NCBI RefSeq assembly: GCF_023746595.1 | Contig: NZ_CP080572.1 | Span: 806,001 to 870,000 of the forward strand | From: Thermococcus argininiproducens | Lineage (GTDB): Archaea; Methanobacteriota_B; Thermococci; Thermococcales; Thermococcaceae | Length of the DNA: 64,000 nucleotides | Direction: 5' to 3' | In this document: one piece after another, positions 18,507-39,087 of the stretch | Layout of the letters: each line of letters begins with the position of its first letter | How positions within the stretch are numbered: position 1 is the stretch's first letter | Notes under the pieces: model-generated | Database searches by the model: none | Told to the model about the DNA's origin: nothing | What the model saw: only the letters and a program-made list of their open reading frames with translations | Made by a program: the position numbers and the translations under genes

Positions 18507-18530
18507 CTTTTTTCTTATTTTTGTTTAAAA
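18507..18530 (+). terminator. T-rich transcription end after aIF5A
   Basis: Immediately after the stop codon there are runs of six and five T residues separated by short spacers (TTTTTTCTTATTTTTG). Oligo-T tracts act as terminators in Thermococcales. The convergent PfkB gene ends inside the same stretch, so the site lies between two opposing transcripts. Confidence 0.5.
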
Positions 18531-19387
18531 TTCTGTGTTATTCTTACAAGATTCTTCGGGTTTTTTATAACTTGAGTTGCTACGTTGATTCCTTCTTGTA
18601 TAGCTTCATTGAGAGAATATCCCTTTGCTATATTTGCCATCACTGTTCCAAAAAGTGAATCTCCAGCTCCTGTGAGCTCCACAATGTTAGTTTTCTTTGC
18701 GGGTACTTTAATAACCTCGTTGTCTTCAGTAAGTGCAATAACTCCTCTTTCTCCCATACTTAATATAATATTCTTCGCTCCTGCGTTTTTAAAGGCCTTT
18801 AATGCTTCTTCTGGAGTTTTTACTCCAAAGAGTTCTTTAGCATCTTCAAATGAGGGTTTAACATAATCTGCCATTGCGAGGGCCTGTAGTAGATTTTCTT
18901 TTTTAGCATTCCATTTCTTCCATATTTCTTTACGATAATTGGGGTCTATTGAGATCAATACTCCTTCTTCCTTTGCTTTTTTTAATGCTTTAAGAATGGC
19001 CTCACTAGCAGGCTTCAGAGAGAGTGCAAATGCAGAGGTATGTACAATATCTGCTTTTTTCCAATTTCTCTCAATTGTATCATAGGTTAAGAACCTGTCA
19101 GCTCCTCTATAGATTATAAAATCTTTTCCAGCTTCTTTTATTAAAACTAGGGTTGTGTTTTGGCCTATACGAAGTGGCTTTATGTTTGAATTCAAGTATC
19201 TGAGTTCACTTTCTATGTGGTCTGCTAAAAAGTCATTTCCTATAGTGCCAATAAATTTCACTTTTGTCCCAGCTTGTTCAGCATAATAAGAAAAGTTAAG
19301 GACAGAGCCACCAGCGTGCATACTTATTTGATTATTTATGAGTTTTAAGTCAACTAATGCTTCTCCTAATGCCAAAATATCAGTCAT
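18515..19387 (-). CDS. PfkB-family sugar kinase
   Basis: A 290-aa ribokinase-fold kinase. The N-terminal glycine pair motif lies in MHAGGSVLNFSYYAEQAG and the C-terminal PfkB signature in VELTGAGDSLFGTVMANI, whose Asp is the catalytic base. The residue after GAGD is Ser, a small variation. In this regulon it most likely phosphorylates the free sugar released from an imported disaccharide, for example fructose, but the substrate cannot be read from sequence. It is the last gene of the minus-strand sugar operon, starting ten bases after the GT4 gene with AGGTGA as ribosome-binding site. Confidence 0.88.
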   Translation of the reverse strand: MTDILALGEALVDLKLINNQISMHAGGSVLNFSYYAEQAGTKVKFIGTIGNDFLADHIESELRYLNSNIKPLRIGQNTTLVLIKEAGKDFIIYRGADRFLTYDTIERNWKKADIVHTSAFALSLKPASEAILKALKKAKEEGVLISIDPNYRKEIWKKWNAKKENLLQALAMADYVKPSFEDAKELFGVKTPEEALKAFKNAGAKNIILSMGERGVIALTEDNEVIKVPAKKTNIVELTGAGDSLFGTVMANIAKGYSLNEAIQEGINVATQVIKNPKNLVRITQNFKQK

Positions 19388-19396
19388 GTTGTCACC

Positions 19397-20599
19397 TCAT
19401 AATCCTTTAAAGAGTTGGAGTACTTGTTCGGCCACACTATGCCAGGAGTATCTTTCGAGAACTTTCTGATATGCTCTCTCCGCAAAGGTATCTCTCTTCT
19501 CCTTATTCTTTAACAGCTCTGCAATCTTGGTTCCCATTTCTTCAGAATTTTTCGGGTCTACTAAGAATCCATCGTAACCATCTTCTAGAACTTCTGCGGG
19601 ACCTCCAAACTTTGTTCCCACCATAGCAGTTTTACATGCCATTGCTTCAAGCATGACTATTCCAAATGGCTCGTATGGAGAGGGAAGAACAAAGACATCT
19701 GCTGCTGAATAGTATTTTGGAACTAGTTCTCTCGGCTCTATTGCGGGAATTATCTTTACACGATCCTCAACTTTCAATTCTTTAATTAAACGTAAAAGCT
19801 TCTGTTTTTCTGGTTCTTCTTCCTTTGCTCCAGTTCCGGTACTTATTAGAACTAGAAAATCTCCCTCGTAATGCTCTTTAATATAGGGAACACTCTTTAT
19901 GAGCAAGTCTAAACCCTTTCTTGGGTCAAGTCTTGCTAGAGTGAAGACCAATGGTACTTTTGGAAGTTTAAGCTCCTTTTTTAACTTCTCTTTCTCTCCT
20001 ATTGGTTTATAAAAGCTCGTATCAACCCCTATGGGGATCACGTGGATTTTATTCTCGTCAATTTCATAAAGGGTAGCTATGTCTTTCTTTTCAATGTTTG
20101 TAGTTGCTATTACAGCATCACTCTTATCGTAAATCTCTTTTTCGAGAGCAATCCTATCTTTGTATGGTTCAAAGTCCCCTAGAGCTTTTGCTTTCAGAAT
20201 TCCAAGAGAATGGGAAGTATGTACCATTTTAACTTCAAATATTTCCTTGAGTTTTAATCCTACAAAACCACCATCCCAGTAGTGAGTATGGAGAATTTCA
20301 TAATTTCTTTCTTTCATGTATATGGCAATCTTTTCAGTGAATTCTGGTAAATATGGTATTAGCTTCTCCTTCGGAATGAAGCCTTCAGGGCCACATTCTA
20401 TCCTAATTACCCTAACATTTTCGTTAATGTGTTCTATAGGGGGTTTTCCACCCCTCTGCCTGGTGAACATATCTACTTCTACTCCCAACTCTCCTAGATG
20501 CTTACTTAGTTCTTTAATGTAGACACACTGACCTCCGGTGTCTGGTTCACCCAATTTCCCCAATGGATCTCCATGAGGAGTTATCATTGCTATTCTCAT
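19397..20599 (-). CDS. GT4 glycosyltransferase resembling sucrose-phosphate/mannosylfructose-phosphate synthases
   Basis: 400 aa, GT-B fold. The donor-side start MITPHGDPLGKLGEPDTGGQ resembles sucrose synthase/SPS proteins (DTGGQ-x-x-Y), and the C-terminal nucleotide-sugar site is PSPYEPFGIVMLEAMACKTA with the GT4 E-x7-E pair. It should join an NDP-sugar to a second sugar or sugar phosphate, or run in reverse as TreT does, releasing an NDP-sugar from a disaccharide. There is no phosphatase domain. The position between a kinase and transporter genes suits a catabolic or reversible role. Confidence 0.85.
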   Translation of the reverse strand: MRIAMITPHGDPLGKLGEPDTGGQCVYIKELSKHLGELGVEVDMFTRQRGGKPPIEHINENVRVIRIECGPEGFIPKEKLIPYLPEFTEKIAIYMKERNYEILHTHYWDGGFVGLKLKEIFEVKMVHTSHSLGILKAKALGDFEPYKDRIALEKEIYDKSDAVIATTNIEKKDIATLYEIDENKIHVIPIGVDTSFYKPIGEKEKLKKELKLPKVPLVFTLARLDPRKGLDLLIKSVPYIKEHYEGDFLVLISTGTGAKEEEPEKQKLLRLIKELKVEDRVKIIPAIEPRELVPKYYSAADVFVLPSPYEPFGIVMLEAMACKTAMVGTKFGGPAEVLEDGYDGFLVDPKNSEEMGTKIAELLKNKEKRDTFAERAYQKVLERYSWHSVAEQVLQLFKGL

Positions 20600-20672
20600 T
20601 TTATCACCCCTCTAACACTCTTGTGGCAATATTCTCAGGATTGAGTAACAAAGATCTAGATTTTGCCTTGAT

Positions 20673-21710
20673 TTATGGGTAATTTTCTCCATATAATCTC
20701 CAGAAGACCTTGTTAAGCCACTCATTAAACCATGCGATTTTGATTTCTTTTCCATAGAAGCTAAATCTACATGCTGGTGCTGTGATAGCTCCAATGTACT
20801 TATCCGCTGCTCCATAGTACATGATCCACTTCCCCTTGTAACTTACTAGAGCTTCAGCAAAAACCACATTTGGAACATTCCCCACTTTTTCCCAAAGTAA
20901 TTGTGGTTCAAATATAGGCTCATCAGACCTTGCGATAACCCTATAGGGATTAGAGGGATCGAGTAGAACCCACCCAATACTATAGCCTTTTTCCCAGCTT
21001 GCTCCGTTATAAAATAGCAAAATACCTCTGTCTGTGAGTATTGGGGGTGGTCCTGGTTCTACGAGACGTTCGTCAAACATTTTTAACCTTGCCTCTAGTA
21101 TTGGATTTTTCCAGTCTGCTTTCCAATGAATTAAATCTTTGCTGTATGCAATCCAGATTTTCCAATCTCCAAAAAACATTATATAAGTTCCATTTATTTC
21201 AACTGGGAGTATTGCACCACTTTTTGTCCATGGCCATTCAGGGAACACTATTCCATGTTTTTCCCAGTGTATTAGATCTTTACTTGAAGCTATTGCAAGT
21301 CTTGCAGTGGAACCATCAAAAGCTGTATATGTCATGTAGTAGGTATCGTTGATTTTTACAATTCTTGGATCTTCACACCCCATTCTTTCTTCTGGGAGAG
21401 TGGGATATATTACGGGTTGAGGATACTTTTTGAAGTTTATCCCATCTTTACTAGTTGCTAAAGCTATATAAGATCTAAATTTATTGTCTTGGGCCCTGTA
21501 GAATAGATAAATTGTATCGTTAACAACAATTGCTGCGGGATTAAACGTTGCTTTGCTTTCGAAAGGATACTCTCCTGGAGATAAAATTGGTTTGTCTGAA
21601 ACTCGTGTGTATCCATTTATTGGAGGAGTACAATCGTACCTGAATCCATAAGTTAGAAACAGAATTGTAAATATGAATAAAAAAATAATAGCCGCATATT
21701 TCTTTTTCAA
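20673..21710 (-). CDS. Exported GH130/GH43-like five-bladed propeller protein
   Basis: 345 aa. A hydrophobic N-terminus (YAAIIFLFIFTILFLTYGF) acts as signal or anchor, placing the rest outside. The propeller has repeated units of the kind YIALATSKDGINFKKY, LAIASSKDLIHWEKH and WIAYSKDLIHWKAD. GCEDPRIVKI (Asp114), VEPGPPP and YYGAADKYIGAI match GH130 landmarks. GH130 enzymes act on mannosides as phosphorylases or hydrolases. Outside the cell a hydrolase or a binding protein is more plausible. The start is a TTG behind GGAGGG. It is co-directional with the ABC transporter. Confidence 0.8.
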   Translation of the reverse strand: MKKKYAAIIFLFIFTILFLTYGFRYDCTPPINGYTRVSDKPILSPGEYPFESKATFNPAAIVVNDTIYLFYRAQDNKFRSYIALATSKDGINFKKYPQPVIYPTLPEERMGCEDPRIVKINDTYYMTYTAFDGSTARLAIASSKDLIHWEKHGIVFPEWPWTKSGAILPVEINGTYIMFFGDWKIWIAYSKDLIHWKADWKNPILEARLKMFDERLVEPGPPPILTDRGILLFYNGASWEKGYSIGWVLLDPSNPYRVIARSDEPIFEPQLLWEKVGNVPNVVFAEALVSYKGKWIMYYGAADKYIGAITAPACRFSFYGKEIKIAWFNEWLNKVFWRLYGENYP

Positions 21711-21722
21711 AAAGTTCCCTCC

Positions 21723-22796
21723 TTATCCATAAATGAGTTCTCTTGTTTTAGCATCGAATATGTATATCCTGTCTGCCCTTGGTTTCCAGTAAACCTCTTT
21801 CACACTGGTTCCCATACTTTCTGGAAGTTGAACAACTATCTCTAAGTTGCCATAGGGAATATGGCCATAACTTTCTACCCCTAGTTTTTCGATACCTAGG
21901 AGCTTTCCTTTAACAAACCCTTCCTTTGCGTCTTTGCTTACTTCTACATGTTGGGGTCTGAAGCCTAGAATCACTTTCTCTCTGGCTTCCATTTCCATTG
22001 GAAGCTCTAACAAAAATTCACCAGCATTAAAGAGTGTCTTGTTGTCTTTTACAATTATTTCTCCTTCAATTAGATTCATAGGGGGGCTCCCTACAAACGT
22101 ACCGACGAAAGTGTTCGCGGGTTTGTAAAAGATTTCATTTGGAGTTCCAACTTGTTGGAGAACTCCTTTATTCATAACGGCTATTCTATCGGCCATTGTC
22201 ATAGCCTCGACCTGATCGTGAGTTACGTAAATTGTTGTTATTCCTAAGTCATAGCTTAGGAGTTTTTTAAGCTCAAAACGCATTTGGGTTCTTATTTTTG
22301 CATCCAAGTTGCTTAAAGGTTCATCTAGTAAAAACACCTCGGGCTCTCTTACAAGGGCTCTTGCAAGTGCCACTCTTTGTTGTTGCCCACCACTTAACTC
22401 GCTTGGTTTTCTATTTAACAACTCACTTATTCCCAGGAACTCTGCAACTTCTTTTACCTTTTTGGCTCGTTCCTGTTTTGGAACACCAGCCATTCTTAGA
22501 GGAAATTCAATATTCCCAAAGACAGTCATATGGGGGTATAAAGCATAGCTCTGGAATACCATTGCTGTATTTCTCTTAGTAGGGTCTATTTCATTAACTA
22601 ATTGATCGCCAATCCATATCTCACCTTCTGTAGGTGTTTCCAATCCAGCAATCATTCTAAGAGTTGTTGATTTCCCACATCCACTTGGACCAAGTAGCAC
22701 CATGAACTCTCCATCTTTAATTTCAAGGTTTAGCCTACTAACAGCTATTACATTTCCAAATTTCTTTGTGACATTCTTCAGCAAAACCCTCGCCAT
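21723..22796 (-). CDS. Sugar ABC transporter ATP-binding protein (MalK/MsmX type)
   Basis: 357 aa. Walker A LLGPSGCGKSTT, Q-loop MVFQSYALYPHMTVFGN, signature ELSGGQQQRVALARALV, Walker B VFLLDEPLSNLDAK and the H-loop VTHDQVEAM are all intact. A C-terminal OB/TOBE regulatory domain of about 120 residues follows, as in MalK. It energises the two permeases encoded directly upstream. The ATG overlaps the permease stop (TAATG). The TOBE domain could bind a regulator or enzyme, as known for MalK. Confidence 0.93.
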   Translation of the reverse strand: MARVLLKNVTKKFGNVIAVSRLNLEIKDGEFMVLLGPSGCGKSTTLRMIAGLETPTEGEIWIGDQLVNEIDPTKRNTAMVFQSYALYPHMTVFGNIEFPLRMAGVPKQERAKKVKEVAEFLGISELLNRKPSELSGGQQQRVALARALVREPEVFLLDEPLSNLDAKIRTQMRFELKKLLSYDLGITTIYVTHDQVEAMTMADRIAVMNKGVLQQVGTPNEIFYKPANTFVGTFVGSPPMNLIEGEIIVKDNKTLFNAGEFLLELPMEMEAREKVILGFRPQHVEVSKDAKEGFVKGKLLGIEKLGVESYGHIPYGNLEIVVQLPESMGTSVKEVYWKPRADRIYIFDAKTRELIYG

Positions 22797-23644
22797 TAGC
22801 CTTTCCCTCCCGTAACTACTATGCCTCTAATCAGATACTTATTCAGCACAAGGAAGAGGATTATCGTGGGTGCGGATGCCACGAGTGAACCTGCGATTAT
22901 TGGAGTGTATTCAGTCCACATGCTTCGTTGGAAAGCAAAACTAAGTCCTACTGGGAGTGTGAAGTTCTCAGGAGATCTTAAGAAGATCAGTGGGCCTATA
23001 AATGCATTCCAAGAGCCTAAGAATTGATATACTGCCACTGCTCCAAGGGCAGGTCTTGCTAGAGGTAGAGCAATGTAGAAAAATGATTTTATCGGTCCGC
23101 ATCCATCCAAACGAGCAGCTTCAAATATTTCGGTGGAAAGGGACATGAAGTACTGTCTCATTAGGAATATACTCGAGACATTAGTGAGGCCCAGAAGGGC
23201 AAGTCCAAAGATGTTGTCTATTAGTCCAAGCTTATATATTATAATGTAATTTGGCACTAAGGTTACGAACATGGGAATCATCAAGAGTGAAAGTAGAGCT
23301 GAAAAGAGAACGTCTCTCCCTGGGAATTTCAATCTAGCAAATGCATAACCGGCCATGCTGGTAAACATTATATTACCTGCAACTATTAAACCCGCATAAA
23401 GAGCCGTGTTTCTAATCCATCTTGGGAATAATTCCAATCTAAAGAGTTTCTGATAATTCTCTAGGGTGAATGGACTAGGCATCCACTCTGGAGGGTATCT
23501 TGAAGCTTGAGCCCATGTCATAAAAGAAGCTACAAGAGATCGGATGAATGGCATTAGATAAACGAGTGCAAAGGTTAATAAGACTGCATAGGTTATTACA
23601 ACCCATATGCGACGTATTAATAGTTCCTTTTCTTTGGGTGTCAT
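22796..23644 (-). CDS. Sugar ABC transporter permease (MalG type)
   Basis: 282 aa, about six membrane helices, with the EAA loop EAARLDGCGPIKSFFYIALP that contacts the ATPase. The start MTPKEKELL is chosen because it overlaps the previous stop as ATGA. The longer reading frame upstream lies within the other permease gene. Typical of the CUT1 group that imports oligosaccharides. Confidence 0.93.
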   Translation of the reverse strand: MTPKEKELLIRRIWVVITYAVLLTFALVYLMPFIRSLVASFMTWAQASRYPPEWMPSPFTLENYQKLFRLELFPRWIRNTALYAGLIVAGNIMFTSMAGYAFARLKFPGRDVLFSALLSLLMIPMFVTLVPNYIIIYKLGLIDNIFGLALLGLTNVSSIFLMRQYFMSLSTEIFEAARLDGCGPIKSFFYIALPLARPALGAVAVYQFLGSWNAFIGPLIFLRSPENFTLPVGLSFAFQRSMWTEYTPIIAGSLVASAPTIILFLVLNKYLIRGIVVTGGKG

Positions 23645-24579
23645 CTCATAGCCCTCCCGTATTTTTTCTGGAAGATATATGTGGTTGTAAAGATTATAGC
23701 AAAGAGGAACCAACTTTTAGCTGCTGCAACCCCGGGGTTAATTCTTGTAAATGCCTCGTTATAGATGTCCAGTGCCACTGTGTATCCTGCCCCTCCTGGC
23801 CCGCCATTCGCCCCAGCCATTACCCAGGCTAGGTCAAACATCTGGAGGGCCCCAATAAGACCCATAACCACTACATACACTATCATGGGCCTTAACATTG
23901 GGATTGTTATGAAGAAGAATCTTCTTATGGGGCCTGCGCCATCTAGCATAGCTGCTTCGTATATTTCTTTGGGAATCGCTTGCATTGCTGCTAGGAAAGA
24001 CACCATAAAGTGCCCACTGGTTCCCCATATAGCAACAGTGGCTATTGCTAAGAGGAGGTAATTTCTATCGTTTATCCAGTCTATTGGTTGAAATCCTGGA
24101 ATTACATGGGAAAGTGCAAAATTAATAAAACCGTTTTTCATGAAGAGCCAAATGAAAATCAAGGCGACTATAACGGAAGATGTAGTTGCAGGAAGAAAGT
24201 AGGACACTTTAAAGAATTGTTGTCCCTTAATCTTTTGATTTGCGAAAGAGGCTAAAACTATAGCAAGAAACGTTTGTACGGGGACAACTATTGCAGTGTA
24301 AATAAGGATGTTTTTTAATCCTGTATAAAACGGAGAAAGTAAATATGAGGCTCCGTTGAGACCTCTCATTAGGTCTCTTAACACTATCTCAAAATTTTTT
24401 AACCCCACAAATTGCATTGTGCCTATATAATCCCACTTGAAAAAGCTCAAATAAAAGGCAAATCCCATTGCAAAATATCCAAAAACGAGATTTAGGATGA
24501 CAGCGATCGAGATGAGAGATAAACCAGCAACAATCTCCTTATTTCTAGCCTTCTCATAAAAAGAAGAAAAAGAAAACAT
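23641..24579 (-). CDS. Sugar ABC transporter permease (MalF type)
   Basis: 312 aa, about six to seven membrane helices and the EAA loop EAAMLDGAGPIRRFFFITIP. ATG 24579 has GAGGTG six bases before it. The GTG at 24597 would overlap the binding-protein gene and place that site inside the gene. It pairs with the MalG-type permease directly after it. Confidence 0.92.
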   Translation of the reverse strand: MFSFSSFYEKARNKEIVAGLSLISIAVILNLVFGYFAMGFAFYLSFFKWDYIGTMQFVGLKNFEIVLRDLMRGLNGASYLLSPFYTGLKNILIYTAIVVPVQTFLAIVLASFANQKIKGQQFFKVSYFLPATTSSVIVALIFIWLFMKNGFINFALSHVIPGFQPIDWINDRNYLLLAIATVAIWGTSGHFMVSFLAAMQAIPKEIYEAAMLDGAGPIRRFFFITIPMLRPMIVYVVVMGLIGALQMFDLAWVMAGANGGPGGAGYTVALDIYNEAFTRINPGVAAAKSWFLFAIIFTTTYIFQKKYGRAMR

Positions 24580-24589
24580 ATCAGTCACC

Positions 24590-25921
24590 TCAGCCACTTA
24601 ATTCTTCTTGAACAACCTGCTTCATAACGTCTATTGCTTCGTCAATTGTCATTTCTCCTCTCATTGCAGCAGCCATTGCGTCACTGAACTTACCTTCAAG
24701 TGGTCCTGATTTTGGACCCCAAAGGAACACTATCATTTCGTCGTACTCAAAGGAGAGTGTTTTCTTGTGTTGTGGCCACATGTCTGGGTCGTTCTCAAAG
24801 CCCTTTATGCTTGGTAGTGTGTGTCCTCCTTTGACAACAAGTTCTTTTTGTCCATCTGGACCTAATAAGAATTCTACAAATTTCCAAGCCTCTTGTGGGT
24901 GCTCACTCTTTGCGTTTATTCCTAAGATTACTGTATATGCCATTGTAACTCTGCCTTCTTTTCCAGCTGGAACTGGAGCAATGTCCCAGTCTTCTCCATA
25001 CTTGAAGTCAGGGAACTGATCCGCTAGGAATGGTATCATCCAGTTTCCACTTATTACCATAGCAACTTCTTGTTGACCAAAGGCATCTCCAAGCCATCCT
25101 GCTCCTACATCTCCGGGTTGTACAACATAAGGAGTTAATCCTTGTTCTTCTCTCTCAATCTTTCCTTTCTTGTAGAGGTTTATGTACCAAGTAAGGGTTT
25201 CTTTAACCACTGGATTGTCAAACCAAGCTGCATCTTCAGGTTTTTCAAACCAAGGCTTTGGAGCACCGTTACTCACAGCAACAGGTACGTATCTGTTGAA
25301 TCCACCAAGATAAATTGCCAAGCCAGGTTTTCCGGTTTTATCAGCTATTATCTTTGCGTATTGTTCAAGCTCCTCCCAAGTTTCAGGTGGTTTTGTTAAT
25401 CCTGCTTGCTCAAAGAGTTTCTTGTTATAGAAGAGAGCTAACATACTCCAGTCTTTTGGAAGACCATAAAGCTTTCCATCCTTCTTAAAGGGTTCTAAGA
25501 GGAATGGATAGAATTGATCAACAAAGCTTTGGTCTGCAAGTTCGGATATTGGATATAGAGCTCCTTTGTCAATGAATATTGGTGACCATGCGCTATCGAC
25601 GTAGAATATGTCTGGAGCAACACCAGCTCCAAATGAAGCTAGGATGTTTTCGTGGAACATTTGAGTAATGACCTCATATTTAACACCAATGTTCGGGTTT
25701 GCTTGCTCAAATTCAGCGATCATTTTTTGATAGTTTTTCATCTCAGTTTCTCCAGCGCTCCAACCTGCAAATCTTATGAAGACTTTTTCTTGGATCTGGG
25801 TCTCGGTTTCGGTCTTTGTTTCTGTTGTTGGGCTTGGAGTTTGGCCTCCAATACATCCTGAGGCTACTACTGCAAAAAGCAGGGCAAAAATCAAAAGACC
25901 TCCAAAGAGAACTTTCTTCAT
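24590..25921 (-). CDS. Sugar ABC transporter substrate-binding lipoprotein (CUT1, MalE-like)
   Basis: 443 aa. The signal peptide ends in VVASGCIGG, a lipobox-like site, followed by a Thr/Glu-rich tether (TPSPTTETKTETETQ). The extracellular lobe pattern of family 1 binding proteins is clear (FAGWSAGETEMKNYQKMI, YGLPKDWSMLALFYNKKLFE and GPDGQKEL). It delivers an oligosaccharide to the permeases encoded next. ATG 25921 is preceded by GGTGGGAGGGAG. It is first in the minus operon and divergent from the TrmB gene, with a shared control region. Substrate likely an alpha-glucoside, judged from the GH65 enzyme in the regulon. Confidence 0.92.
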   Translation of the reverse strand: MKKVLFGGLLIFALLFAVVASGCIGGQTPSPTTETKTETETQIQEKVFIRFAGWSAGETEMKNYQKMIAEFEQANPNIGVKYEVITQMFHENILASFGAGVAPDIFYVDSAWSPIFIDKGALYPISELADQSFVDQFYPFLLEPFKKDGKLYGLPKDWSMLALFYNKKLFEQAGLTKPPETWEELEQYAKIIADKTGKPGLAIYLGGFNRYVPVAVSNGAPKPWFEKPEDAAWFDNPVVKETLTWYINLYKKGKIEREEQGLTPYVVQPGDVGAGWLGDAFGQQEVAMVISGNWMIPFLADQFPDFKYGEDWDIAPVPAGKEGRVTMAYTVILGINAKSEHPQEAWKFVEFLLGPDGQKELVVKGGHTLPSIKGFENDPDMWPQHKKTLSFEYDEMIVFLWGPKSGPLEGKFSDAMAAAMRGEMTIDEAIDVMKQVVQEELSG

Positions 25922-25965
25922 TTTTCTCCCTCCCACCTAGGGTTAAGTAATATGGTCTTTCAATT

Positions 25966-26073: not shown

Positions 26074-27132
26074 ATGGAAAACTATGCGTTTTTGATTGAG
26101 AAGCTACAGGAACTAGGACTCACAAAAAGAGAAGCTGAAGTGTATCTTGCTATTCTTGTGAGGAATGGGGCCACCGTGAAGGATCTTCTTGAGTCATTGG
26201 ATATACATCAACCTCAATTATATAACATAATCCAAAGCCTCATCAGGAAGGGGTTTATTAGAGCTTCTGCGGGGAGGCCTAGAATATATACTGCAAGTGA
26301 TATAAGTGCTCTCATAGATATTCAAAAAATGAAATTTGATCTTCTAAAAACCACGCTTCAAGAAGAACTTACGAAAATAAAAAGCAGATCGGAAGAAGAG
26401 GGACCGTATATCTCTATGGTTAGGAGTTTAGAAGGTGTATTAGCTAGCATTATAGAGATAGTTAACTCTGCAGAAGTAGAAATTAGAGCAGAACTGCCAT
26501 CTCCTATTTTTAAAGAGCTCAAACATTATCTTTTAGGGGCTGCTCAGAGAGGAGTGAACTTATATCTTTTGGTATACCCTGGAACCGGGGGATTTGAGGA
26601 ATTTGAGAGATTCAAAGATCAAGTGAAAATAAAAACCTCTGAGCTTGGGAACTTTTTGCTTGTTATTGCAGATCTTTCAAGTGCAGTTTATGCAAAAAGA
26701 AGGTTCTTTAGTGTTCACAAGCTTCCCGTTTCAAATACGGAGATTTATGGGTATGTCATTCAAGAAAAGGATTTATTACTTAGGTTACTAAACATTCATA
26801 ATAATCTATGGATAAAGGCTAAGGAAGCTCTTTGTTGGGTTTCAAGGCCTGAATTGTATCCAAAGACCTTTATAGAATTTTCTATGGCGCTTAATGAACT
26901 AGAAACTCTCTTAAAGCTTGGTTACACTCCCATAGTTACAGTAGAAGGAAGAGACATTAAAAGTAGTTACCCCATAAAAACCAAAGGAAGAGTTCGTTCT
27001 GTAAACCGTTTTGGAATCGTAAGTAATTTTGTTCTTGAAAGTGAGGAAGGAACATTAACTATAGGAGGATTTGATGCAGAAGTGGAAGATATCGAGGCTC
27101 AGCGTATTATAATAGAGAAAATAGAAAGATGA
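26074..27132 (+). CDS. TrmB-family sugar-sensing transcription regulator
   Basis: 352 aa. A winged helix-turn-helix fills residues 1-80 (LGLTKREAEVYLAILVRNGA, HQPQLYNIIQSLIRKGFI), followed by a coiled linker and a C-terminal sugar-binding domain with the phospholipase-D-like TrmB region and a beta-rich end. TrmB proteins bind maltose, trehalose or related sugars and control neighbouring uptake genes. Its position, divergent from an ABC operon and upstream of phosphorylase genes, fits a local regulator. It is similar in plan to TrmB of T. litoralis, but is not the malE-region gene order. Confidence 0.9.
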   Translation: MENYAFLIEKLQELGLTKREAEVYLAILVRNGATVKDLLESLDIHQPQLYNIIQSLIRKGFIRASAGRPRIYTASDISALIDIQKMKFDLLKTTLQEELTKIKSRSEEEGPYISMVRSLEGVLASIIEIVNSAEVEIRAELPSPIFKELKHYLLGAAQRGVNLYLLVYPGTGGFEEFERFKDQVKIKTSELGNFLLVIADLSSAVYAKRRFFSVHKLPVSNTEIYGYVIQEKDLLLRLLNIHNNLWIKAKEALCWVSRPELYPKTFIEFSMALNELETLLKLGYTPIVTVEGRDIKSSYPIKTKGRVRSVNRFGIVSNFVLESEEGTLTIGGFDAEVEDIEAQRIIIEKIER

Positions 27133-27147
27133 ACTGGAGGGTACCAA

Positions 27148-27852
27148 ATGAAGGAGATAGCACTAATATGGGACTTTGATGGCGTGTTAGTCTTTACTCC
27201 CCACGAAGAAGCTTGGAAAAGAGCTGCAAGGCACTACGGAGCGGACATTGATCATGAGTTTTATGTGGCCTATGTTTCAGGGAAACCACGATATGAGGGA
27301 GCTCATAAGATATTAGAACTTAAAGGGATTTATGAAAAATATAACGCAAGAAGTGAAGAAGAGAGAAAGGAACTTCTACATGAATTTGCGGAGTTTAAGA
27401 ACAGGATAGTCAACGAGATGTTTGAAAGGGAGGAATACAAGGTTAATTGGAATGCAATACTCTTTTTACAGAATGCAAAAAAAGCTGGAATAAAGAATGC
27501 TCTTGCATCCGCATCTAAAAATGCTACAAAACTAGCGAAAAAAGTCAAGATTGGGGAGAAAACACTTGCTGATTTGTTTGATGTGAATGTTAGTGGAATG
27601 GCTCCAACTAAAAAAGAGGTTTTCAAATTGGCAATGGAAGAGTTGAGAAGAAATTTTTCAGATATCAAATTTTTCTTCGTAATTGAAGATGCTCCAGCAG
27701 GTATTCAGGCTGGAAAAGAACTTGGGGCCTTTACTTTGGGTTATGAAAGGGAAGCGAAGTTGAATAGTGCTGATTTGACTTTTGATGATTTTGCCAAATT
27801 GACTACTAAGAACCTTCAGCAGCTTATAGAAATAAAGGAGGGTAAGGTATGA
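27148..27852 (+). CDS. HAD hydrolase, beta-phosphoglucomutase-like
   Basis: 234 aa. The HAD nucleophile motif is IWDFDGVLVF with Asp9 and Asp11. Motif II is NALASASKN and motif IV is FFVIEDAPAGIQAGKELGA. The cap with YVSGKPRYEGAHKIL resembles beta-phosphoglucomutase. Turning beta-glucose-1-phosphate into glucose-6-phosphate is the natural partner step for the GH65 phosphorylase whose gene overlaps its end (ATGA). A plain sugar phosphatase cannot be excluded. GGAGGG lies before the start. Confidence 0.85.
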   Translation: MKEIALIWDFDGVLVFTPHEEAWKRAARHYGADIDHEFYVAYVSGKPRYEGAHKILELKGIYEKYNARSEEERKELLHEFAEFKNRIVNEMFEREEYKVNWNAILFLQNAKKAGIKNALASASKNATKLAKKVKIGEKTLADLFDVNVSGMAPTKKEVFKLAMEELRRNFSDIKFFFVIEDAPAGIQAGKELGAFTLGYEREAKLNSADLTFDDFAKLTTKNLQQLIEIKEGKV

Positions 27853-30092
27853 AGTTCAATTTCGAGTTTAACCGATACTCGCCAAGAGAAGAGGAGCTTT
27901 ATGGTACGATATTAACATTGGGAAATGGCCATATTGGATTAAGGGGAGAAATTGAACTTGAACCCACAATATATGGTACAACTGTTGCAGGGATTTATGA
28001 CTATGCTCCATACTTTTATAGAGAAATAGTGAATGCTCCTCGGGTAATTGGGCTACAGATGATGTTTAGTGGAGAACCCCTTAATTTGAGCACACACAAG
28101 CTTTCAAGATATGAAAGAGAACTTAATATTGAGGAAGGAACATTAAAGACCTGGGTTCACATGGAGACTCACAAAGGAGTGAAAATTCAATATGAGAGTT
28201 TAAGGATTGTTCATGGAAAACGAAAGAACCTTATTATATTAAAGTTTAAATTTCAAGCGAGTAAAGGTGGTTTATTAACTTTGGTAAATCCAATTGAAAC
28301 AGATGTTGCAAACCCTTCTTACCGCCCAGAAATTATGGTAAAACATTGCTCACTTAAGGAACTTTATTTTGATGAAAAATCAATATATGCTGAGGTTAGA
28401 ACACTGGATGAGAGATATAACATTGGGATTGGAAGTTCCCTTATCACGGAGGAAAAGGTGGAGAGAAGTGTTATAAAGAGTAGTAGAGGTATAGCAGAGG
28501 TTCTAAGTCTACAAGTTCGGCCTAACAAGGTTTATGAATTTGTTAAATACGTGGTTATATCCTCTAAAAACGATGAGAATTTAAAGGAAGAAGTTTTAGG
28601 AGAACTCAAAGAAGCTGTAGGATTGGGTTTTGGGAAGCTTTATGAAGAGCACAGAGAGTACTGGAATGATATTTGGAAAAAGGCCAAGATTGAGATTGAA
28701 GGTGATGATGAGGCAGAAAAGGGGCTTAACTTTAGTCTCTTCCATTTGATTCAGTCACTTCCAAGAGATAGCAATATTTCTCTAACAGCCAGGGGAATAC
28801 ACGGTTTTGGTTATAGGGGACATGTGTTCTGGGATACTGAGATCTATGCGCTCCCGTTTTTTATAGCAGTTTTTCCAGAGGATGCCAGGAGGATGCTGAT
28901 GTATAGGTACAGGAATCTAGAATCTGCTAAAGAAAATGCTAAGCTCAATGGTTATGATGGTGCTCAATTCCCTTGGGAGTCTGCTGACGATGGATACGAG
29001 GCTACTCCTTCTCTTGTTCCTCTTGACATGGCTGGTAAGGAAGTTGTGAGAATTTACACAGGAGAGGAAGAGCACCATATAACCGCAGATATAGCTTATA
29101 CTGTGGACTTGTACTATAAGTTTACTAGAGATGAAGAGTTCATGTCAAAATATGGGCTTGAGATAATTCTTGAAACGGCTCGTTTTTGGGCCAGTAGGGT
29201 AGAACTTGATGAGAAGAGAGGGTACGTAATACGAAGGGTCATAGGTCCAGATGAGTACCATGAGCACGTAGATAATAGCTTTTTCACAAATTTAATGGCA
29301 AAGCATAACCTTCTTTTAGGAGTTGCTTATTTTAAAAAAGCTCTGGAGCTTGGCGGTGAGTGGATGGAGACTATTAAAAGAGCAGGAGTCGATGAGGAAG
29401 AAGTTCGTGGATGGTTCCAGGTAGCAGAGAGAATATATATTCCAAGACAAGTGGAAGGGGTATTTGAGGAATTTGATGGGTATTTTGAGTTAGAAGACTA
29501 CAACCTTGATCCATATGGCATTGGAGAAGCAAGATTGCCTGAAGAGATAAGAAAAAGGATAGGAAAAACAAGACTCATAAAGCAAGCAGATGTTATAGCA
29601 GCTCAATATCTGTTAAAGGAACAGTTTGATCTTGAGACAATTAAAAAGAACTTTGATTACTATATTGTCCGAACAACCCATGCCTCTTCGCTTTCAATGC
29701 CGGCCTACAGTATAGTAGCTTCTTGGTTAGATTATGGAGACTTGGCATATGACTATTTCATGAAATGTGCTTATATAGATCTTAAAAACATTTATGGAAA
29801 TACTCATGATGGCTTCCATCTTGCAACCGCAGGCGGGGTATGGCAAGCACTCTTCAGAGGATTCTGTGGGATTGATATAAAGGAAGACATGATAGAAATC
29901 TCACCAAAGTTGCCTCAAAAGTGGAAATCAGTGAAACTTAGGTTCTTTTTTAGAGGTGCTTGGATTGATCTTGTTATCAAAAATAACGAGATAAAGGTGA
30001 AACTCCTCAATGAATTGAAGAGTGTAAGAGTTTATGCTTTCGGAAAAGAGGTTGTCCTAGGCCCAGGAGAGGAGGTAACTTTGGAGAAGTAG
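27849..30092 (+). CDS. GH65 family inverting disaccharide phosphorylase (kojibiose/trehalose phosphorylase type)
   Basis: 747 aa, the usual size for GH65. It has an N-terminal beta-sandwich, a linker, then an (alpha/alpha)6 barrel with HVFWDTEIYALPFF, the general acid Glu469 in IGPDEYHEHVDNS and the phosphate-binding THASSLSMPAYS (His611-Ser613-Ser614), then a C-terminal beta sheet. The phosphate-binding residues argue for phosphorolysis, not hydrolysis, giving beta-glucose-1-phosphate. Kojibiose, trehalose, maltose or nigerose cannot be told apart from motifs. Known archaeal relatives include a Pyrococcus kojibiose phosphorylase. Coupled to the beta-phosphoglucomutase-like gene. Confidence 0.9.
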   Translation: MKFNFEFNRYSPREEELYGTILTLGNGHIGLRGEIELEPTIYGTTVAGIYDYAPYFYREIVNAPRVIGLQMMFSGEPLNLSTHKLSRYERELNIEEGTLKTWVHMETHKGVKIQYESLRIVHGKRKNLIILKFKFQASKGGLLTLVNPIETDVANPSYRPEIMVKHCSLKELYFDEKSIYAEVRTLDERYNIGIGSSLITEEKVERSVIKSSRGIAEVLSLQVRPNKVYEFVKYVVISSKNDENLKEEVLGELKEAVGLGFGKLYEEHREYWNDIWKKAKIEIEGDDEAEKGLNFSLFHLIQSLPRDSNISLTARGIHGFGYRGHVFWDTEIYALPFFIAVFPEDARRMLMYRYRNLESAKENAKLNGYDGAQFPWESADDGYEATPSLVPLDMAGKEVVRIYTGEEEHHITADIAYTVDLYYKFTRDEEFMSKYGLEIILETARFWASRVELDEKRGYVIRRVIGPDEYHEHVDNSFFTNLMAKHNLLLGVAYFKKALELGGEWMETIKRAGVDEEEVRGWFQVAERIYIPRQVEGVFEEFDGYFELEDYNLDPYGIGEARLPEEIRKRIGKTRLIKQADVIAAQYLLKEQFDLETIKKNFDYYIVRTTHASSLSMPAYSIVASWLDYGDLAYDYFMKCAYIDLKNIYGNTHDGFHLATAGGVWQALFRGFCGIDIKEDMIEISPKLPQKWKSVKLRFFFRGAWIDLVIKNNEIKVKLLNELKSVRVYAFGKEVVLGPGEEVTLEK

Positions 30093-32817: not shown

Positions 32818-34191
32818 TTAATCGTTTAATACTTTTTCTAATAGGTCCAGTCCTAAGTTGAGGTATTCTCTTACTTTTTCTTCGCTTTTTGCTTCGGCAA
32901 AGATTCTTATTATGGGTTCAGTTCCACTCGCTCTCACAAGAACCCAACCATCTTTGAAGAGTATCTTTGTTCCGTCGGTTGTATCAATAGTTAGCCCTTC
33001 TTTCTTTGCGAATTCTGCTACTTTTGCGACAATTATTTTTCTATCTCCTTCGACATGTTTTTTAGTTTTAAGTTGGTAGAATTTTGGAAGTGTGCCTATT
33101 AACTCACTGAATTTCTTGCCGCTCTTTGCAAAGATCTCAACTATCTTTGCTACGGTCATTGCACCATCTCTACCAAGGACATGATCTGGAAAGATAACTC
33201 CACCATTTTCTTCTCCTCCGACTAGGCCATTATGCTCCAGAAGGGTCCTCGATACTATTAGGTCCCCTACCTTGGTTTTGATGACCTTTCCATTATACAT
33301 CTTGGCGAGTTCATCGATTATATGAGAAGTGGCAATGGTTGTCACCACCAGACCACCTTTGTTTTCTTCGAGCATGTCTTTGACTACAAGGGCAAAGGTC
33401 TTATCTCCTTGGACAAAGTTTCCGTTTTCGTCTATGAATACTGAACGATCTGCATCTCCATCTTGAGCAACTCCAAAGTCAGCACCAAGCGCTTTAACGA
33501 TTTTCATGAATCCTTGAAGGTTTTCCTCATTTGGTTCTGGATTTCTTGCTGGAAAGTGACCATCTGGCTGGGCATTTACGCTCACAACTTTACACCCGAG
33601 TTCTCTTAGGAGATATGGGAGCACAAGGGAGCCAGCACCGTTTGATGTGTCAACGACTACAAATGGTCTTCTCTTTTTTATGACTTCAATGTCCACTTTA
33701 GACTTTATTGCGTCTATATACGGTCTTATTATATCTCTTTCTAGAAGTTGGCCAATTTCATGCCATTTTGCCTTATGAAATTCCTCATTAAAGAAAAGTT
33801 CCTCAACTATACTTTCTCTCTCTTTTTTAAGTCCTAATCCATTTGGTTCAAGAAGTTTTATTCCATTGTATTCTGGAGGATTGTGAGATGCCGTGATAAC
33901 AGCTCCTCCGTCCACTTTGAAATATTTACATGCGAACTGAATCGCTGGTGTTGGAGCTATACCTACATCTATAACATTAATGCCAGTGCTTAGTAGGCCA
34001 CTTATTAAGGCATTCTTCAACATTTCTCCACTTACTCTAGTGTCTCTTCCCACAACTACCCAAAGCTCTTTGGTTGGTTCTTCTCTTTTTAAAAGTGTTC
34101 CAAAGGCTAGGCCCATTTTTAAAGCAAATTCCGGGGTTATTTTCTCATTTGCTATGCCCCTAACGCCGAATGTCCCAAATATCTTGCTCAT
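32818..34191 (-). CDS. manB: Phosphomannomutase/phosphoglucomutase
   Basis: 457 aa alpha-D-phosphohexomutase. Four family motifs are intact: ITASHNPPEYNG with phosphoserine Ser102, DGDADRSVF (magnesium site), GGEENGGVIFP (sugar specificity) and RASGTEPIIRIF (phosphate). In this operon it interconverts mannose-6-phosphate and mannose-1-phosphate for GDP-mannose. It could also accept glucose phosphates. ATG 34191 follows AGGTG by six bases; the GTG and ATG just upstream lie in or next to that site. Last gene of the mannosylglycerate operon. Confidence 0.92.
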   Translation of the reverse strand: MSKIFGTFGVRGIANEKITPEFALKMGLAFGTLLKREEPTKELWVVVGRDTRVSGEMLKNALISGLLSTGINVIDVGIAPTPAIQFACKYFKVDGGAVITASHNPPEYNGIKLLEPNGLGLKKERESIVEELFFNEEFHKAKWHEIGQLLERDIIRPYIDAIKSKVDIEVIKKRRPFVVVDTSNGAGSLVLPYLLRELGCKVVSVNAQPDGHFPARNPEPNEENLQGFMKIVKALGADFGVAQDGDADRSVFIDENGNFVQGDKTFALVVKDMLEENKGGLVVTTIATSHIIDELAKMYNGKVIKTKVGDLIVSRTLLEHNGLVGGEENGGVIFPDHVLGRDGAMTVAKIVEIFAKSGKKFSELIGTLPKFYQLKTKKHVEGDRKIIVAKVAEFAKKEGLTIDTTDGTKILFKDGWVLVRASGTEPIIRIFAEAKSEEKVREYLNLGLDLLEKVLND

Positions 34192-34227
34192 CCTCATCAC
34201 CTGTGCTCTATTATTAGGCTTTTTGTT

Positions 34228-35610
34228 TCAACCTCTCCCAAAATCGTCTTGGAAACGTTCAATGTCATCTTCACCTAGGTATTCTCCTATTTGTGTTTCT
34301 ATGACCTCAAGCACAACTTTCCCGGGGTTTTCAAGTCTGTGTACTGCCCCTGCAGGTATGAAAGTACTTTCTCCAGGCCTTAATAGGAGTTCTTTATCTT
34401 CTATCTTCACTTTTGCAGTCCCCCTGACTACAACCCAATGTTCTGAGCGATGATAGTGTCGTTGGAGGGAGAGTCTGTTTCCAGGTAAAACCGTTAGGCG
34501 CTTTATTTTGTATCTCTCTCCTTCTTCTAGTACGGTATAAGAGCCCCATGGTCTGTATGCCGTCTTGTGCACTATAGCCCTCTCGTCATTGCTCTCTACA
34601 AGCTTTCTGTAAACTTCCTTAACTTTCTGACTTTCTCCTTTTTTCGCAACGAGTAATGCGTCTCCAGTATCGATTATTATCAGATCTTCAATACCAACGG
34701 TTGCTGTTAATCTTTCAGTTATTACAAGATTGTTTTTGGAGTCTATGTTTATGTACTCTCCTTTAAATCCACTGATCTTGACAGCATTCCCCGTTTTATC
34801 TTTTTCAAAGGCTTCATATATGGCATCAAAACTCCCCAAATCATTCCAGTATGTATTTAGGGGTACTACAGCGGCCTTGTCTGTTTTCTCCATAACGCCA
34901 TAATCGACTGAGATATCTGGTACTTTTTCATATGCTTCCTCTATATTCTTTGCTTCTTCGAAAGCAGTGTAAACTTTAGGAGCGACTCTTTTTACTTCTT
35001 CGATGAAAAGAGTACTGTCGAATAGGAACATTCCACTGTTCCAGTAATACCCATTTTCTACATATTGTTTCGCAGTCTCGTAGTCTGGCTTCTCTTTAAA
35101 TTCATCTACCTTGTATCCCCCTTCAAGCTTTTCGCCAGGTTTTATGTATCCATAGCCTGTGTGAGGTTTTGTAGGTCTAATTCCAAATGTTATGAAATAA
35201 TTATCAGCAAGCTGTTCAGCTTTTTCAAATGCCGTAATATAGTTTTCATCAACTTTTATCAAGTGATCTGAGGGTAACACGGCAACTTTCGATCTACCAT
35301 AATTTTCCTCTATAGTCTTCATCCCCCAGTAAATAGCTGGAAGAGTGTTCTTTCCTATAGGCTCTAGGAGGATATTTTCTTCTGGAATTTCAAGGCCAAG
35401 TTCTTTAAGGTCATCAAGAACCCTGAACTTGTATTCTTTATTTGTCACGACAAAAATTTCCTTTGGTTTTGAGAATTTTAGTGCTCTTTCTATGGTTTTT
35501 TGGAATAATGAAGTGTCGTTAAATATTCTTATAAACTGCTTTGGCATAAGTTCTCTACTCAGGGGCCAGAGCCGAGTACCTTTTCCCCCAGCTAGGATTA
35601 AGGTTTTCAT
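34228..35610 (-). CDS. manC: Mannose-1-phosphate guanylyltransferase / mannose-6-phosphate isomerase
   Basis: 460 aa bifunctional type II protein. The N-terminal nucleotidyltransferase has LILAGGKGTRLWPLSRE and PSDHLI. The C-terminal cupin isomerase domain has LQRHYHRSEHWVVVRGTA with the metal-binding histidines, then IPAGAVHRLEN. It makes GDP-mannose, the donor for mannosyl-3-phosphoglycerate synthase. The start overlaps the preceding stop as ATGA. Confidence 0.95.
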   Translation of the reverse strand: MKTLILAGGKGTRLWPLSRELMPKQFIRIFNDTSLFQKTIERALKFSKPKEIFVVTNKEYKFRVLDDLKELGLEIPEENILLEPIGKNTLPAIYWGMKTIEENYGRSKVAVLPSDHLIKVDENYITAFEKAEQLADNYFITFGIRPTKPHTGYGYIKPGEKLEGGYKVDEFKEKPDYETAKQYVENGYYWNSGMFLFDSTLFIEEVKRVAPKVYTAFEEAKNIEEAYEKVPDISVDYGVMEKTDKAAVVPLNTYWNDLGSFDAIYEAFEKDKTGNAVKISGFKGEYINIDSKNNLVITERLTATVGIEDLIIIDTGDALLVAKKGESQKVKEVYRKLVESNDERAIVHKTAYRPWGSYTVLEEGERYKIKRLTVLPGNRLSLQRHYHRSEHWVVVRGTAKVKIEDKELLLRPGESTFIPAGAVHRLENPGKVVLEVIETQIGEYLGEDDIERFQDDFGRG

Positions 35611-36338
35611 TTTATCACCTCCATTAATTTAGTTATTTCCCTTATATCCTTAGCCCCCGAATAGGATAAACCGATTGTGAACGGATAATCAACGACTTTG
35701 AGCATAGGAATGTCGTTTTGGCCGTCCCCGACGGCGTAGCTCTCAATTTTTTCAACCTGTGAATACAAATTTAAAATAAGTTTAGCAGCTTTTCCTTTGT
35801 CGGTGTTTCCGGTTACGTTGTAGAACCTGCTCCCCTTTGAGATTTTTAATTCTCTTTTTGTCAGTTCTTTTTCGAAACCTGGTGTACTCCAAGTGAATAT
35901 GGTTTCTGAATACTCCCTTTGCATGGCTAATTTTGCTAGATCCCCTGGAAGATTGGTATATCTAATTACTTCTTCTAGGCTTGAGTTACCATAGTATTTT
36001 AATCCAAATTTGTCTTTTATCTCATCCAGAGCCTTTTTTATTATAGTATAGTTAACTCCAAGCTCAATTACTAAATAATTTCTCTCTTTCCGTGTAAAAG
36101 GGAAGTTAAAAGGCAGATCATCTTTTGGAATGTACACTGCACTTCCAGTTTCCACAATAAATGGATCATTAATATCAAGGGCCCTCCGGTAGTACTCCTG
36201 TTCAGCCTTAGTTTTTGATGAGTTAAATATTATTTTAAATCCTCTCTCCTTTAGAAATTCCACTATTTTTTTGGCTGGTTCTGGGGAATAGTCCTCTCCT
36301 ATGAGGGTTTTGTCAAGATCGAGGAATATTATCTTCAT
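35607..36338 (-). CDS. mpgP: Mannosyl-3-phosphoglycerate phosphatase
   Basis: 243 aa HAD phosphatase of the MPGP subfamily. The nucleophile motif is [14 protein letters not shown] (Asp7, Asp9), motif II is [10 protein letters not shown] and motif IV is [16 protein letters not shown]. It removes phosphate from mannosyl-3-phosphoglycerate to give mannosylglycerate, a heat and salt solute. The ATG at 36338 overlaps the synthase stop (ATGA); a longer frame upstream lies inside that gene. Confidence 0.95.
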
Positions 36339-37519
36339 AGATCGAACCTCAATAATGTCTCTTGATTGGCGTCCAATGCGTCCATCCATTTTTTAATGTC
36401 TATCTCTTTTATCGGCTTCATGACTCTTGGTTTTGGAGGCTCTTCATTTTCTTTTATTATATTGTGCATTCTAAGATCATTTAGGATTTGTCGTTTTAGA
36501 CTCTCTGATGAGAGTTTTGAGTGGTATATAGTGGTCAATGAAAGCAGAACCATCTCCTTTACGTGTTCTTGGCCTTTATCCTCATGAAAATGTGGGTTTA
36601 AGGTTTCTATCTGGAAAATTTCTATTCCTTGATCAAATACCTCTTGGAGTTCTTTTGCATTCTCCCAAGTGCCAAAGCGTTCAAGGAGATAAACTATCTC
36701 GTAGGGTTCGATTGAATAACCTGTGGAAAATGGTAAGATTTCTGCAAGCTTCATTGTCATAGCGTGCTCTCCAGCATTTCCAGTCACCATGATAGTGGTC
36801 TCAAATGTGGTTTTCTCACTTATGAGTTGATTTAGATATCGATTTGTTATCTCACTTACCCTTCCCCATTTTTTGAAGTAGAGTGTTCCTTTACTTACTT
36901 TTGGTTTGTGTCGCCAGTGGAGTCTTACCATCGCATAGTCGCTTTCACTCATCAGAAAACCAGCAGCATAGTCTTTAACATACTCATTAACGGCTCCAGG
37001 AATATAATTATCAGCATCAACAAAGCCAACGTACTTGGCACCTATGGCTTTTGCAAGTAATATTCCTAGGAGCATCCCTTCGCCCTTTCCACTTCTTACA
37101 AGTCCTTTTTCATCAAGAATATCCTCATATCCGACCTCTTTAAAAGCTTCTCCTAGTCCAGGGTCTTTTTGGTGAATCATCAAGACCCTTGAGTGTGTTA
37201 GATTGCAAAAGTGCTTAACTAAGTCTACTTCTTGCTTGAATCTGTTGGGACCTTTCCTTTTGCTATTAGAAACGATGATAATAGGGGATTTGTGGGGTAT
37301 TGCCTTTAATACACCATCAACAAGGTGAAGCTTCTCATTTTTCATAGGCACAACTATTGCCATTTCCCCAATTACTTTGTAAATATCCCCTCTAGGAATA
37401 TTCTGCACCGTAAACATTGGAACATCCTCGGTTTCAGTATCCATCTTGATGACTTTTTGTAACTCGTAAATTTTCACCGCTCCAAAGATTTCCTTATAAA
37501 CTGGGGCCTCTAAAAGCAT
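36335..37519 (-). CDS. mpgS: Mannosyl-3-phosphoglycerate synthase
   Basis: 394 aa GT55 enzyme joining mannose from GDP-mannose to D-3-phosphoglycerate. The start [17 protein letters not shown] and long blocks such as [38 protein letters not shown] (with the DAD metal motif) and [20 protein letters not shown] are those of the Pyrococcus enzyme. First gene of mpgS-mpgP-manC-manB. It has its own TATA box upstream, so salt or heat control separate from glkA is likely. Confidence 0.97.

Positions 37520-37680: not shown

Positions 37681-39087
<1,407 letters not shown>

Follow-up and report, generated by a model that had tools for sequence, protein, structure and literature searches.

The window analysed here, a stretch of 64,000 nt of the forward strand of Thermococcus argininiproducens (NZ_CP080572.1, 806,001–870,000), holds on its minus strand an intact open reading frame with an ATG start, spanning exactly 19397–20599, which encodes a glycosyltransferase of family GT4 (hereafter GT4). 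Together with the kinase gene that follows it, it ends a sugar-uptake operon, in which the following genes could be assigned:

18515–19387, minus strand: PfkB-family sugar kinase, 290 aa, directly downstream of GT4, predicted fructokinase or disaccharide kinase
19397–20599, minus strand: GT4 glycosyltransferase, 400 aa, assigned from GT4/GT1 Pfam domains, solved relatives and conserved residues
20673–21710, minus strand: GH130 beta-mannosidase/phosphorylase-like protein with an N-terminal hydrophobic stretch
21723–22796, minus strand: sugar ABC transporter ATPase of the UgpC/MalK type (NF008653, 441 bits, cut-off 432)
22796–23713, minus strand: sugar ABC transporter permease 2, whose listed TTG start overlaps permease 1
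23641–24597, minus strand: sugar ABC transporter permease 1 (Pfam/NCBIfam)
24590–25936, minus strand: extracellular sugar-binding protein (SBP), type A, found in 22 of 94 genomes
26074–27132, plus strand, divergent: TrmB-family sugar-sensing regulator (Pfam/NCBIfam)
27148–27852, plus strand: HAD/beta-phosphoglucomutase-like protein, GH65 companion (Pfam/NCBIfam)
27849–30092, plus strand: GH65 alpha-glucoside phosphorylase, closest solved relative kojibiose phosphorylase 3wiq (496 bits)

The GT4 frame is not a chance one, since eight further genomes carry it at 75–97% identity to the window copy. The permease frames overlap by 73 bases (23641–23713), and permease 2 more probably starts at an internal ATG (MTPKEKELL), as it does in L029. 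Elsewhere in the window, mannosylglycerate genes are located at 32818–37519 (MPG synthase, MPG phosphatase and GMP/PMI, all over cut-off) together with a hexose-phosphate mutase that scores as archaeal GlmM, and an ADP-specific glucokinase over cut-off lies at 37681–39084, close to sugar and solute genes. The TrmB motif TACTN3AGTA is matched once in the window, which equals chance expectation, and nowhere near the operon.

GT4 carries the Pfam domains PF13439 (residues 22–195) and PF00534 (residues 204–378). The sequence-only reading had described a DTGGQ start; the motif is present at residues 20–24, near the N-terminus and not at it. Among solved structures, 6kih (Tll1590, the sucrose-phosphate synthase (SPS) of T. 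elongatus) is the top relative with 221.6 bits, followed by 3c4q/3c48, which we take to be C. glutamicum MshA, with 196 bits and 2r60 (H. orenii SPS) with 166.7 bits, all near full length, and a profile of the nine family members keeps the same order (233, 213 and 202 bits). The MshA identity of 3c4q/3c48 also rests on the accessible part of PMC7264703. GT4 stays under every NCBIfam cut-off among the matches listed, of which MshA is the top model (TIGR03449, 250.8 bits, cut-off 462.5); the SPS model TIGR02472 gives 186.3 bits (cut-off 576) and the sucrose synthase (SuSy) model TIGR02470 101.2 bits (cut-off 810.4). The TreT model NF041139 is absent from the best 25 of the 49 NCBIfam matches. 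The genome's own TreT is encoded elsewhere (L006; NF041139, 837 bits, cut-off 775) and matches GT4 over only 215 residues (28% identity, 56 bits), which bears out the earlier statement that the enzyme is unlike TreT. The likeness to SPS claimed in the same place stands in so far as GT4 is placed with SPS, SuSy and MshA rather than with TreT, and falls as regards membership of the SPS family. Judged by these scores, GT4 belongs to the broad SPS/SuSy/MshA superfamily as a separate Thermococcaceae lineage, and is not an SPS, SuSy or MshA as these are defined.

Two trees were built, one of 22 rows without distant rows and a larger one of 25 rows with TreT. Both leave out G079, a near copy, and four other GT4s of the genome, the smaller one also L003, L004 and TreT, and L067 and L068, near copies of L066, are in neither. 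In the 22-row tree the eight Thermococcaceae GT4 rows form one clade (support 100/99). Trees holding this clade with SuSy (p-AU 0.00015, with a single SuSy row that contains a stretch of X), with the H. orenii SPS type (p-AU 0.0004), with the row L066 from the phylum of genome G119 (p-AU 0.0019) or with the T. elongatus SPS group (p-AU 0.0034) were rejected. Grouping with MshA was rejected weakly (p-AU 0.041), and grouping with the whole SPS+SuSy clade is compatible (p-AU 0.50). In the 25-row tree, where the TreT branch is very long, the grouping with TreT that the sequence-only reading had named as its counter-case was rejected (p-AU 0.0165). In these trees the GT4 clade is a lineage of its own, whose placement with respect to the SPS+SuSy clade on one side and the MshA/T. 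elongatus group on the other is ambiguous. We ruled out TreT identity on the genome's own TreT, the short match and the AU test, and plain SPS, SuSy or MshA membership on the NCBIfam cut-offs and the AU tests.

According to the accessible part of PMC7264703, R105 and R178 of T. elongatus SPS are ligands of the phosphate group in sucrose-6-phosphate, H158 and E331 are indispensable, and the variants R105A and R178A retain some activity. By alignment (numbering offset 3), the corresponding residues of GT4 are K77, R149, H130 and E310, and all four are unchanged in 9/9 GT4s. Position 149 is Arg in all eight SPS or phosphatase-paired rows, in both MshA rows and in all three near rows whose acceptor is unknown; Arabidopsis SuSy and, by pairwise alignment, N. 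europaea SuSy have Gln instead. R149 pairs with R174 of H. orenii SPS by HMMER and with R180 by MAFFT. K77 does not discriminate, because SuSy carries Arg there. As read, these residues favour a phosphorylated fructose moiety, and the presence of R149 in all nine proteins speaks against plain free-fructose chemistry, leaving either a pre-phosphorylated disaccharide or synthesis.

GT4 therefore resembles SPS (6kih, 2r60) in its GT-B fold family, the GGQ motif, the catalytic His/Glu and the acceptor-phosphate Lys/Arg, and differs in its sub-threshold scores, its separate branch and its pairing with a kinase and an ABC transporter. With SuSy (3s27, 4rbn) it shares DTGGQ, GGPAE, the EPFG/EAFG motif region and, as proposed below, a reversible NDP-dependent cleavage, whereas it has Arg instead of Gln at 149, is kept apart by the AU test and lacks the N-terminal SSN domains (described in the accessible part of PMC11046441), for which a protein of 400 aa offers no room.

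MshA has equivalents of K77 and R149 as well, and the acceptors of both SPS and MshA are phosphorylated. Together with the full-length similarity to MshA (3c4q) and its first place among the NCBIfam matches listed (251 bits), this would be in line with GT4 moving a sugar onto inositol phosphate, which Thermococcales hold in quantity. We consider this highly improbable: the model's cut-off of 462.5 is far above the score, the grouping is rejected, if weakly, GT4 shares with SPS and SuSy a Gln at residue 24, where MshA has Met, the gene context is unrelated, and the kinase and the sugar transporter would have no role.

GT4 is found in 9 of 94 Thermococcaceae genomes (E 1e-40), in 4 of 6 genera, and the count for the whole phylum, 9 of 115, consists of the same nine. 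Outside the family, the A1 profile (E 1e-60) detected relatives in 3 of 398 genomes of the phylum of G119, which is recorded as a Thaumarchaeota archaeon (270–271 bits), and in none of 294 genomes of the phylum of G120, the latter in a search without a positive control. The closest full-length relatives outside the family, at 35% identity by the A1 profile, are the GT4s of G393, G195 and G246 (L066–L068), which differ in having an SPP-like phosphatase beside them and no matching PfkB or ABC genes, in addition to the AU rejection given above. The phosphatase of L066 reaches neither SPP model (142 bits, cut-off 210; 129 bits, cut-off 184). As an observation in its own right, L066 7399–9372, also present in L067 and L068, is a candidate archaeal sucrose synthesis cassette.

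A contig scan with a single GT4 sequence returned one true relative and otherwise mostly distant GT4s. Plasmid matches are about 26–32% identical and were used as reference rows, and a search for mannosylfructose-type relatives on plasmids returned its own query only. One plasmid, from Acidithiobacillus (L051, NZ_CP118751, 10.8 kb), carries what amounts to a compact sucrose cassette: an MFS transporter, PfkB, GH100 and an SPS with a phosphatase-like domain fused to it. No sucrose-type GT4 of Thermococcales appears in open-access titles among the matches listed, a coverage that takes in few subscription journals, so that a prior description is possible.

In all nine carriers, PfkB directly follows GT4 on the same strand, and strong matches to the PfkB profile occur in precisely these 9 of 94 genomes and none besides. 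The kinase has a PF00294 domain (1.2e-45) with the catalytic TGAGD and an invariant D243, and its top solved relative is the fructokinase 3hj6, which we take to be the H. orenii structure (146 bits; next 84). It holds the motifs GE...D, GG..N, DP.YR and GAGD, which, mapped by motif, would carry the fructose-site residues listed in the accessible part of the review PMC5864856, where an H. orenii fructokinase homologue serves as a model for plant enzymes. Against NCBIfam, the fructokinase model NF006957 is not reached (119.6 bits, cut-off 450) and IolC scores 118.7 bits, scores that leave the substrate of the kinase unsettled.

Sugar-uptake ABC genes stand beside GT4-PfkB in 8 of the 9 carriers, and TrmB-type regulators are present. 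The pair occurs in two operon contexts, ending a GH65 operon (type A) in three carriers, the window included, and lying within an operon resembling the trehalose/maltose (TM) operon (type B) in five. The ninth, G001, has GT4-PfkB-TrmB' without a transporter beside it; its type A operon (L100) looks degraded, with one internal TGA in the SBP and GH65 in two separate pieces.

The type B SBP is found in 5 of 94 genomes (G027, G020, G073, G093 and G075), always beside GT4-PfkB. Four of these loci read SBP-permease-permease-GT4-PfkB-TrmB'-MalK, and in the fifth (G093, L030) the run stops at TrmB' and eIF5A, without MalK. In T. litoralis the TM operon runs malE malF malG treT trmB malK (accessible part of PMC4158304), and that of the window's genome (L104) likewise consists of SBP, two permeases, TreT, TrmB and MalK. 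The type B layout is hence the TM operon order with treT swapped for GT4-pfkB. Against the genome's own TM counterparts, identity is 76% for type B MalK, 35% for TrmB', 31–32% for the permeases and 32% over 204 residues for the SBP. Since the type B permeases and SBP stand no nearer to TM than to type A, type B has the same layout without being a recent copy of the TM operon.

An exchange with TreT was also observed in type A operons, for which 21 of the 22 SBP loci were read (G081 was left out). MalK is followed by GT4-PfkB in three (window, G079 and G002) and by TreT in another three (G072, G031 and G001), where two of the TreTs are over the NCBIfam cut-off and the third is 74% identical to the TreT of the window's genome. 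One further locus shows a deletion of GT4-PfkB (G084), one has GH130 without GT4 (G093), ten have no match to the query proteins, and the slot is not judgeable in G091, G003 and G053, whose contigs stop at MalK or shortly behind it. eIF5A adjoins TreT in all three TreT loci and PfkB in the window and G079, and the type B cluster of G093 sits between agmatinase and eIF5A. Taking this shared neighbour into account, TreT and GT4-PfkB substitute for one another at one chromosomal site. The deletion in G084, of the same genus, is a natural one (L095 7663–7701): window positions 18543–21451 (2,909 bp) are missing and replaced by 39 bp, a loss that takes away the whole of GT4, almost the entire PfkB gene and the greater part of GH130 and leaves stubs of GH130 and PfkB.

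The rest of the window's operon is that of the GH65 (kojibiose) operon of Thermococcales, with SBP, permeases, ATPase, TrmB, HAD and GH65, a pathway that PMC8537180 credits to Jung et al. (2014) for Pyrococcus sp. ST04. It differs in that 18 of the 21 loci, three of them at contig ends, have no GT4-PfkB after MalK. GH65 and HAD were consequently ruled out as parts of the GT4 module, being type A operon genes that mostly occur without GT4.

GH130 was ruled out as well, since it adjoins GT4 only in the window and G079, stands without GT4 in G093 (L099) and is truncated in G084; it is probably a passenger. Its top models are beta-1,2-mannobiose phosphorylase and the BT3780 mannosidase, both under cut-off, and its hydrophobic N-terminus suggests an extracellular role, for which a hydrolase is more sensible than a phosphorylase. 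GH130 proteins are also found near Thermococcales sugar operons in L099 and in L104 (14590–15558).

The regulators provide a further view of the ligand. The accessible part of PMC4158304 reports sucrose binding by P. furiosus TrmB and crystals of the protein with this sugar, which weakens the earlier statement that sucrose-type sugars are unexpected in Thermococcales; S229 contacts the second sugar of maltose. The glucosyl contacts N305, G320 and E326 of this protein are kept in 6/6 type B TrmB', M321 is replaced by Pro and S229 by Ile in 6/6, and V324 also differs. The contact set is not strict, because the genome's own TM TrmB has Ser at 305. As far as these residues can be read, the pattern is in line with an effector that has glucose at its end and a different sugar in second place.

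We propose, at a probability of about 0.5, that GT4 and PfkB jointly break down an alpha-glucosyl-fructoside, with sucrose as the likeliest candidate, in a catabolic module equivalent to TreT for trehalose. The ABC transporter would import the glucoside, and GT4, working in reverse, would transfer the glucosyl unit to a nucleoside diphosphate, releasing NDP-glucose and fructose or fructose-6-phosphate. PfkB would phosphorylate the fructose part at one of two points, after cleavage as a conventional fructokinase or earlier, while it is still in the disaccharide, with NDP-glucose and fructose-6-phosphate as end products in both cases. We infer the substrate, the donor nucleotide, the direction and the order of kinase and GT4. 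TreT enzymes yield NDP-glucose and glucose and accept several NDP-glucoses (accessible part of PMC11046441). TreT needs no kinase partner, because the general ADP-glucokinase handles glucose, whereas a fructoside releases fructose and requires a kinase of its own, hence PfkB; sucrose, as the simplest such fructoside, is our best guess. The module would resemble the TreT/TM system in operon order, slot and proposed NDP-dependent cleavage of an imported disaccharide, and would differ from it in the GT4 lineage and in needing a dedicated kinase. Counted against it are the fructokinase score under cut-off and tied with IolC, the distance of the type B permeases and SBP from TM, and the carrier without a transporter beside the pair. 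So are the Arg at 149 in all nine proteins, its differing partners in H. orenii SPS, the altered TrmB' contacts along with Ser at 305 in the genome's own TM TrmB, and the single, chance-level TrmB motif away from the operon.

The same module might serve another substrate: GT4 would cleave or make a different alpha-glycoside whose aglycone is a ketose or polyol (such as mannosylfructose, a glucosyl-ketose or a glucosyl-polyol), with PfkB acting on that aglycone. The separation of the GT4 lineage from all SPS/SuSy rows in the AU tests, the altered aglycone-side residues of TrmB' and a kinase specificity that profile scores do not fix agree with this, and the type A SBP also serves GH65-only genomes, so its ligand need not be sucrose. 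However, the closest relatives of known function (6kih, 2r60) act on fructose-6-phosphate, and PfkB is nearest to fructokinase. We regard this reading as unlikely; a new acceptor for GT4, as the sequence-only reading had supposed, is possible.

On a strict reading of R149, PfkB would come before GT4: with R149 and K77 as in SPS, it would phosphorylate the fructose part of imported sucrose, and GT4, an SPS-like enzyme working backwards, would split sucrose-6F-phosphate with NDP to NDP-glucose and fructose-6-phosphate. We hold this version of the module to be unlikely. To our knowledge, such a nucleotide-dependent 'phospho-sucrose lysis' would be new as a pathway in hyperthermophilic archaea, and no precedent was found in open-access titles among the matches listed. 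Gut bacteria are known to have sucrose-phosphorylating kinases and sucrose-6F-phosphate phosphorylases, which belong to other families (accessible part of PMC6521584).

R149 would equally suit synthesis, in which PfkB makes fructose-6-phosphate and GT4 sucrose-6-phosphate or a similar compatible solute. The match of K77 and R149 to the acceptor-phosphate ligands of SPS, the mannosylglycerate genes nearby (32818–37519), the SPP-like phosphatase adjoining the L066 relative, and the sps-spp-frk operons that exist in bacteria (accessible part of PMC11046441) all speak for it. On the other hand, a search without a positive control (E 0.001) returned a sucrose-phosphate phosphatase in 0/9 carriers, and the window's HAD protein resembles beta-phosphoglucomutase and is a GH65 companion. 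Fructose-6-phosphate is, moreover, available in cells without a kinase, and the pair sits with sugar-uptake genes and TrmB-type regulators. Synthesis is therefore considered quite unlikely.

The kinase, the transporter and the exchange at the TreT slot, on which the sequence-only reading was silent, are the bulk of the functional evidence, and the chief value of the analysis is the GT4-PfkB pairing and its exchange with TreT. The findings make the cargo of the second, TM-like transporter a directly testable question, and suggest that some Thermococcaceae feed on sucrose or a close relative. If the catabolic module is confirmed, an enzyme interconverting sucrose (or sucrose-6F-phosphate) and NDP-glucose in hyperthermophiles would help NDP-sugar production. 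Thermococcales would then be able to use sucrose, or a sugar like it, while conserving the glycosidic bond energy in NDP-glucose, and the place of treT in archaeal sugar operons would be an exchangeable slot for enzymes that split disaccharides in an NDP-dependent way.
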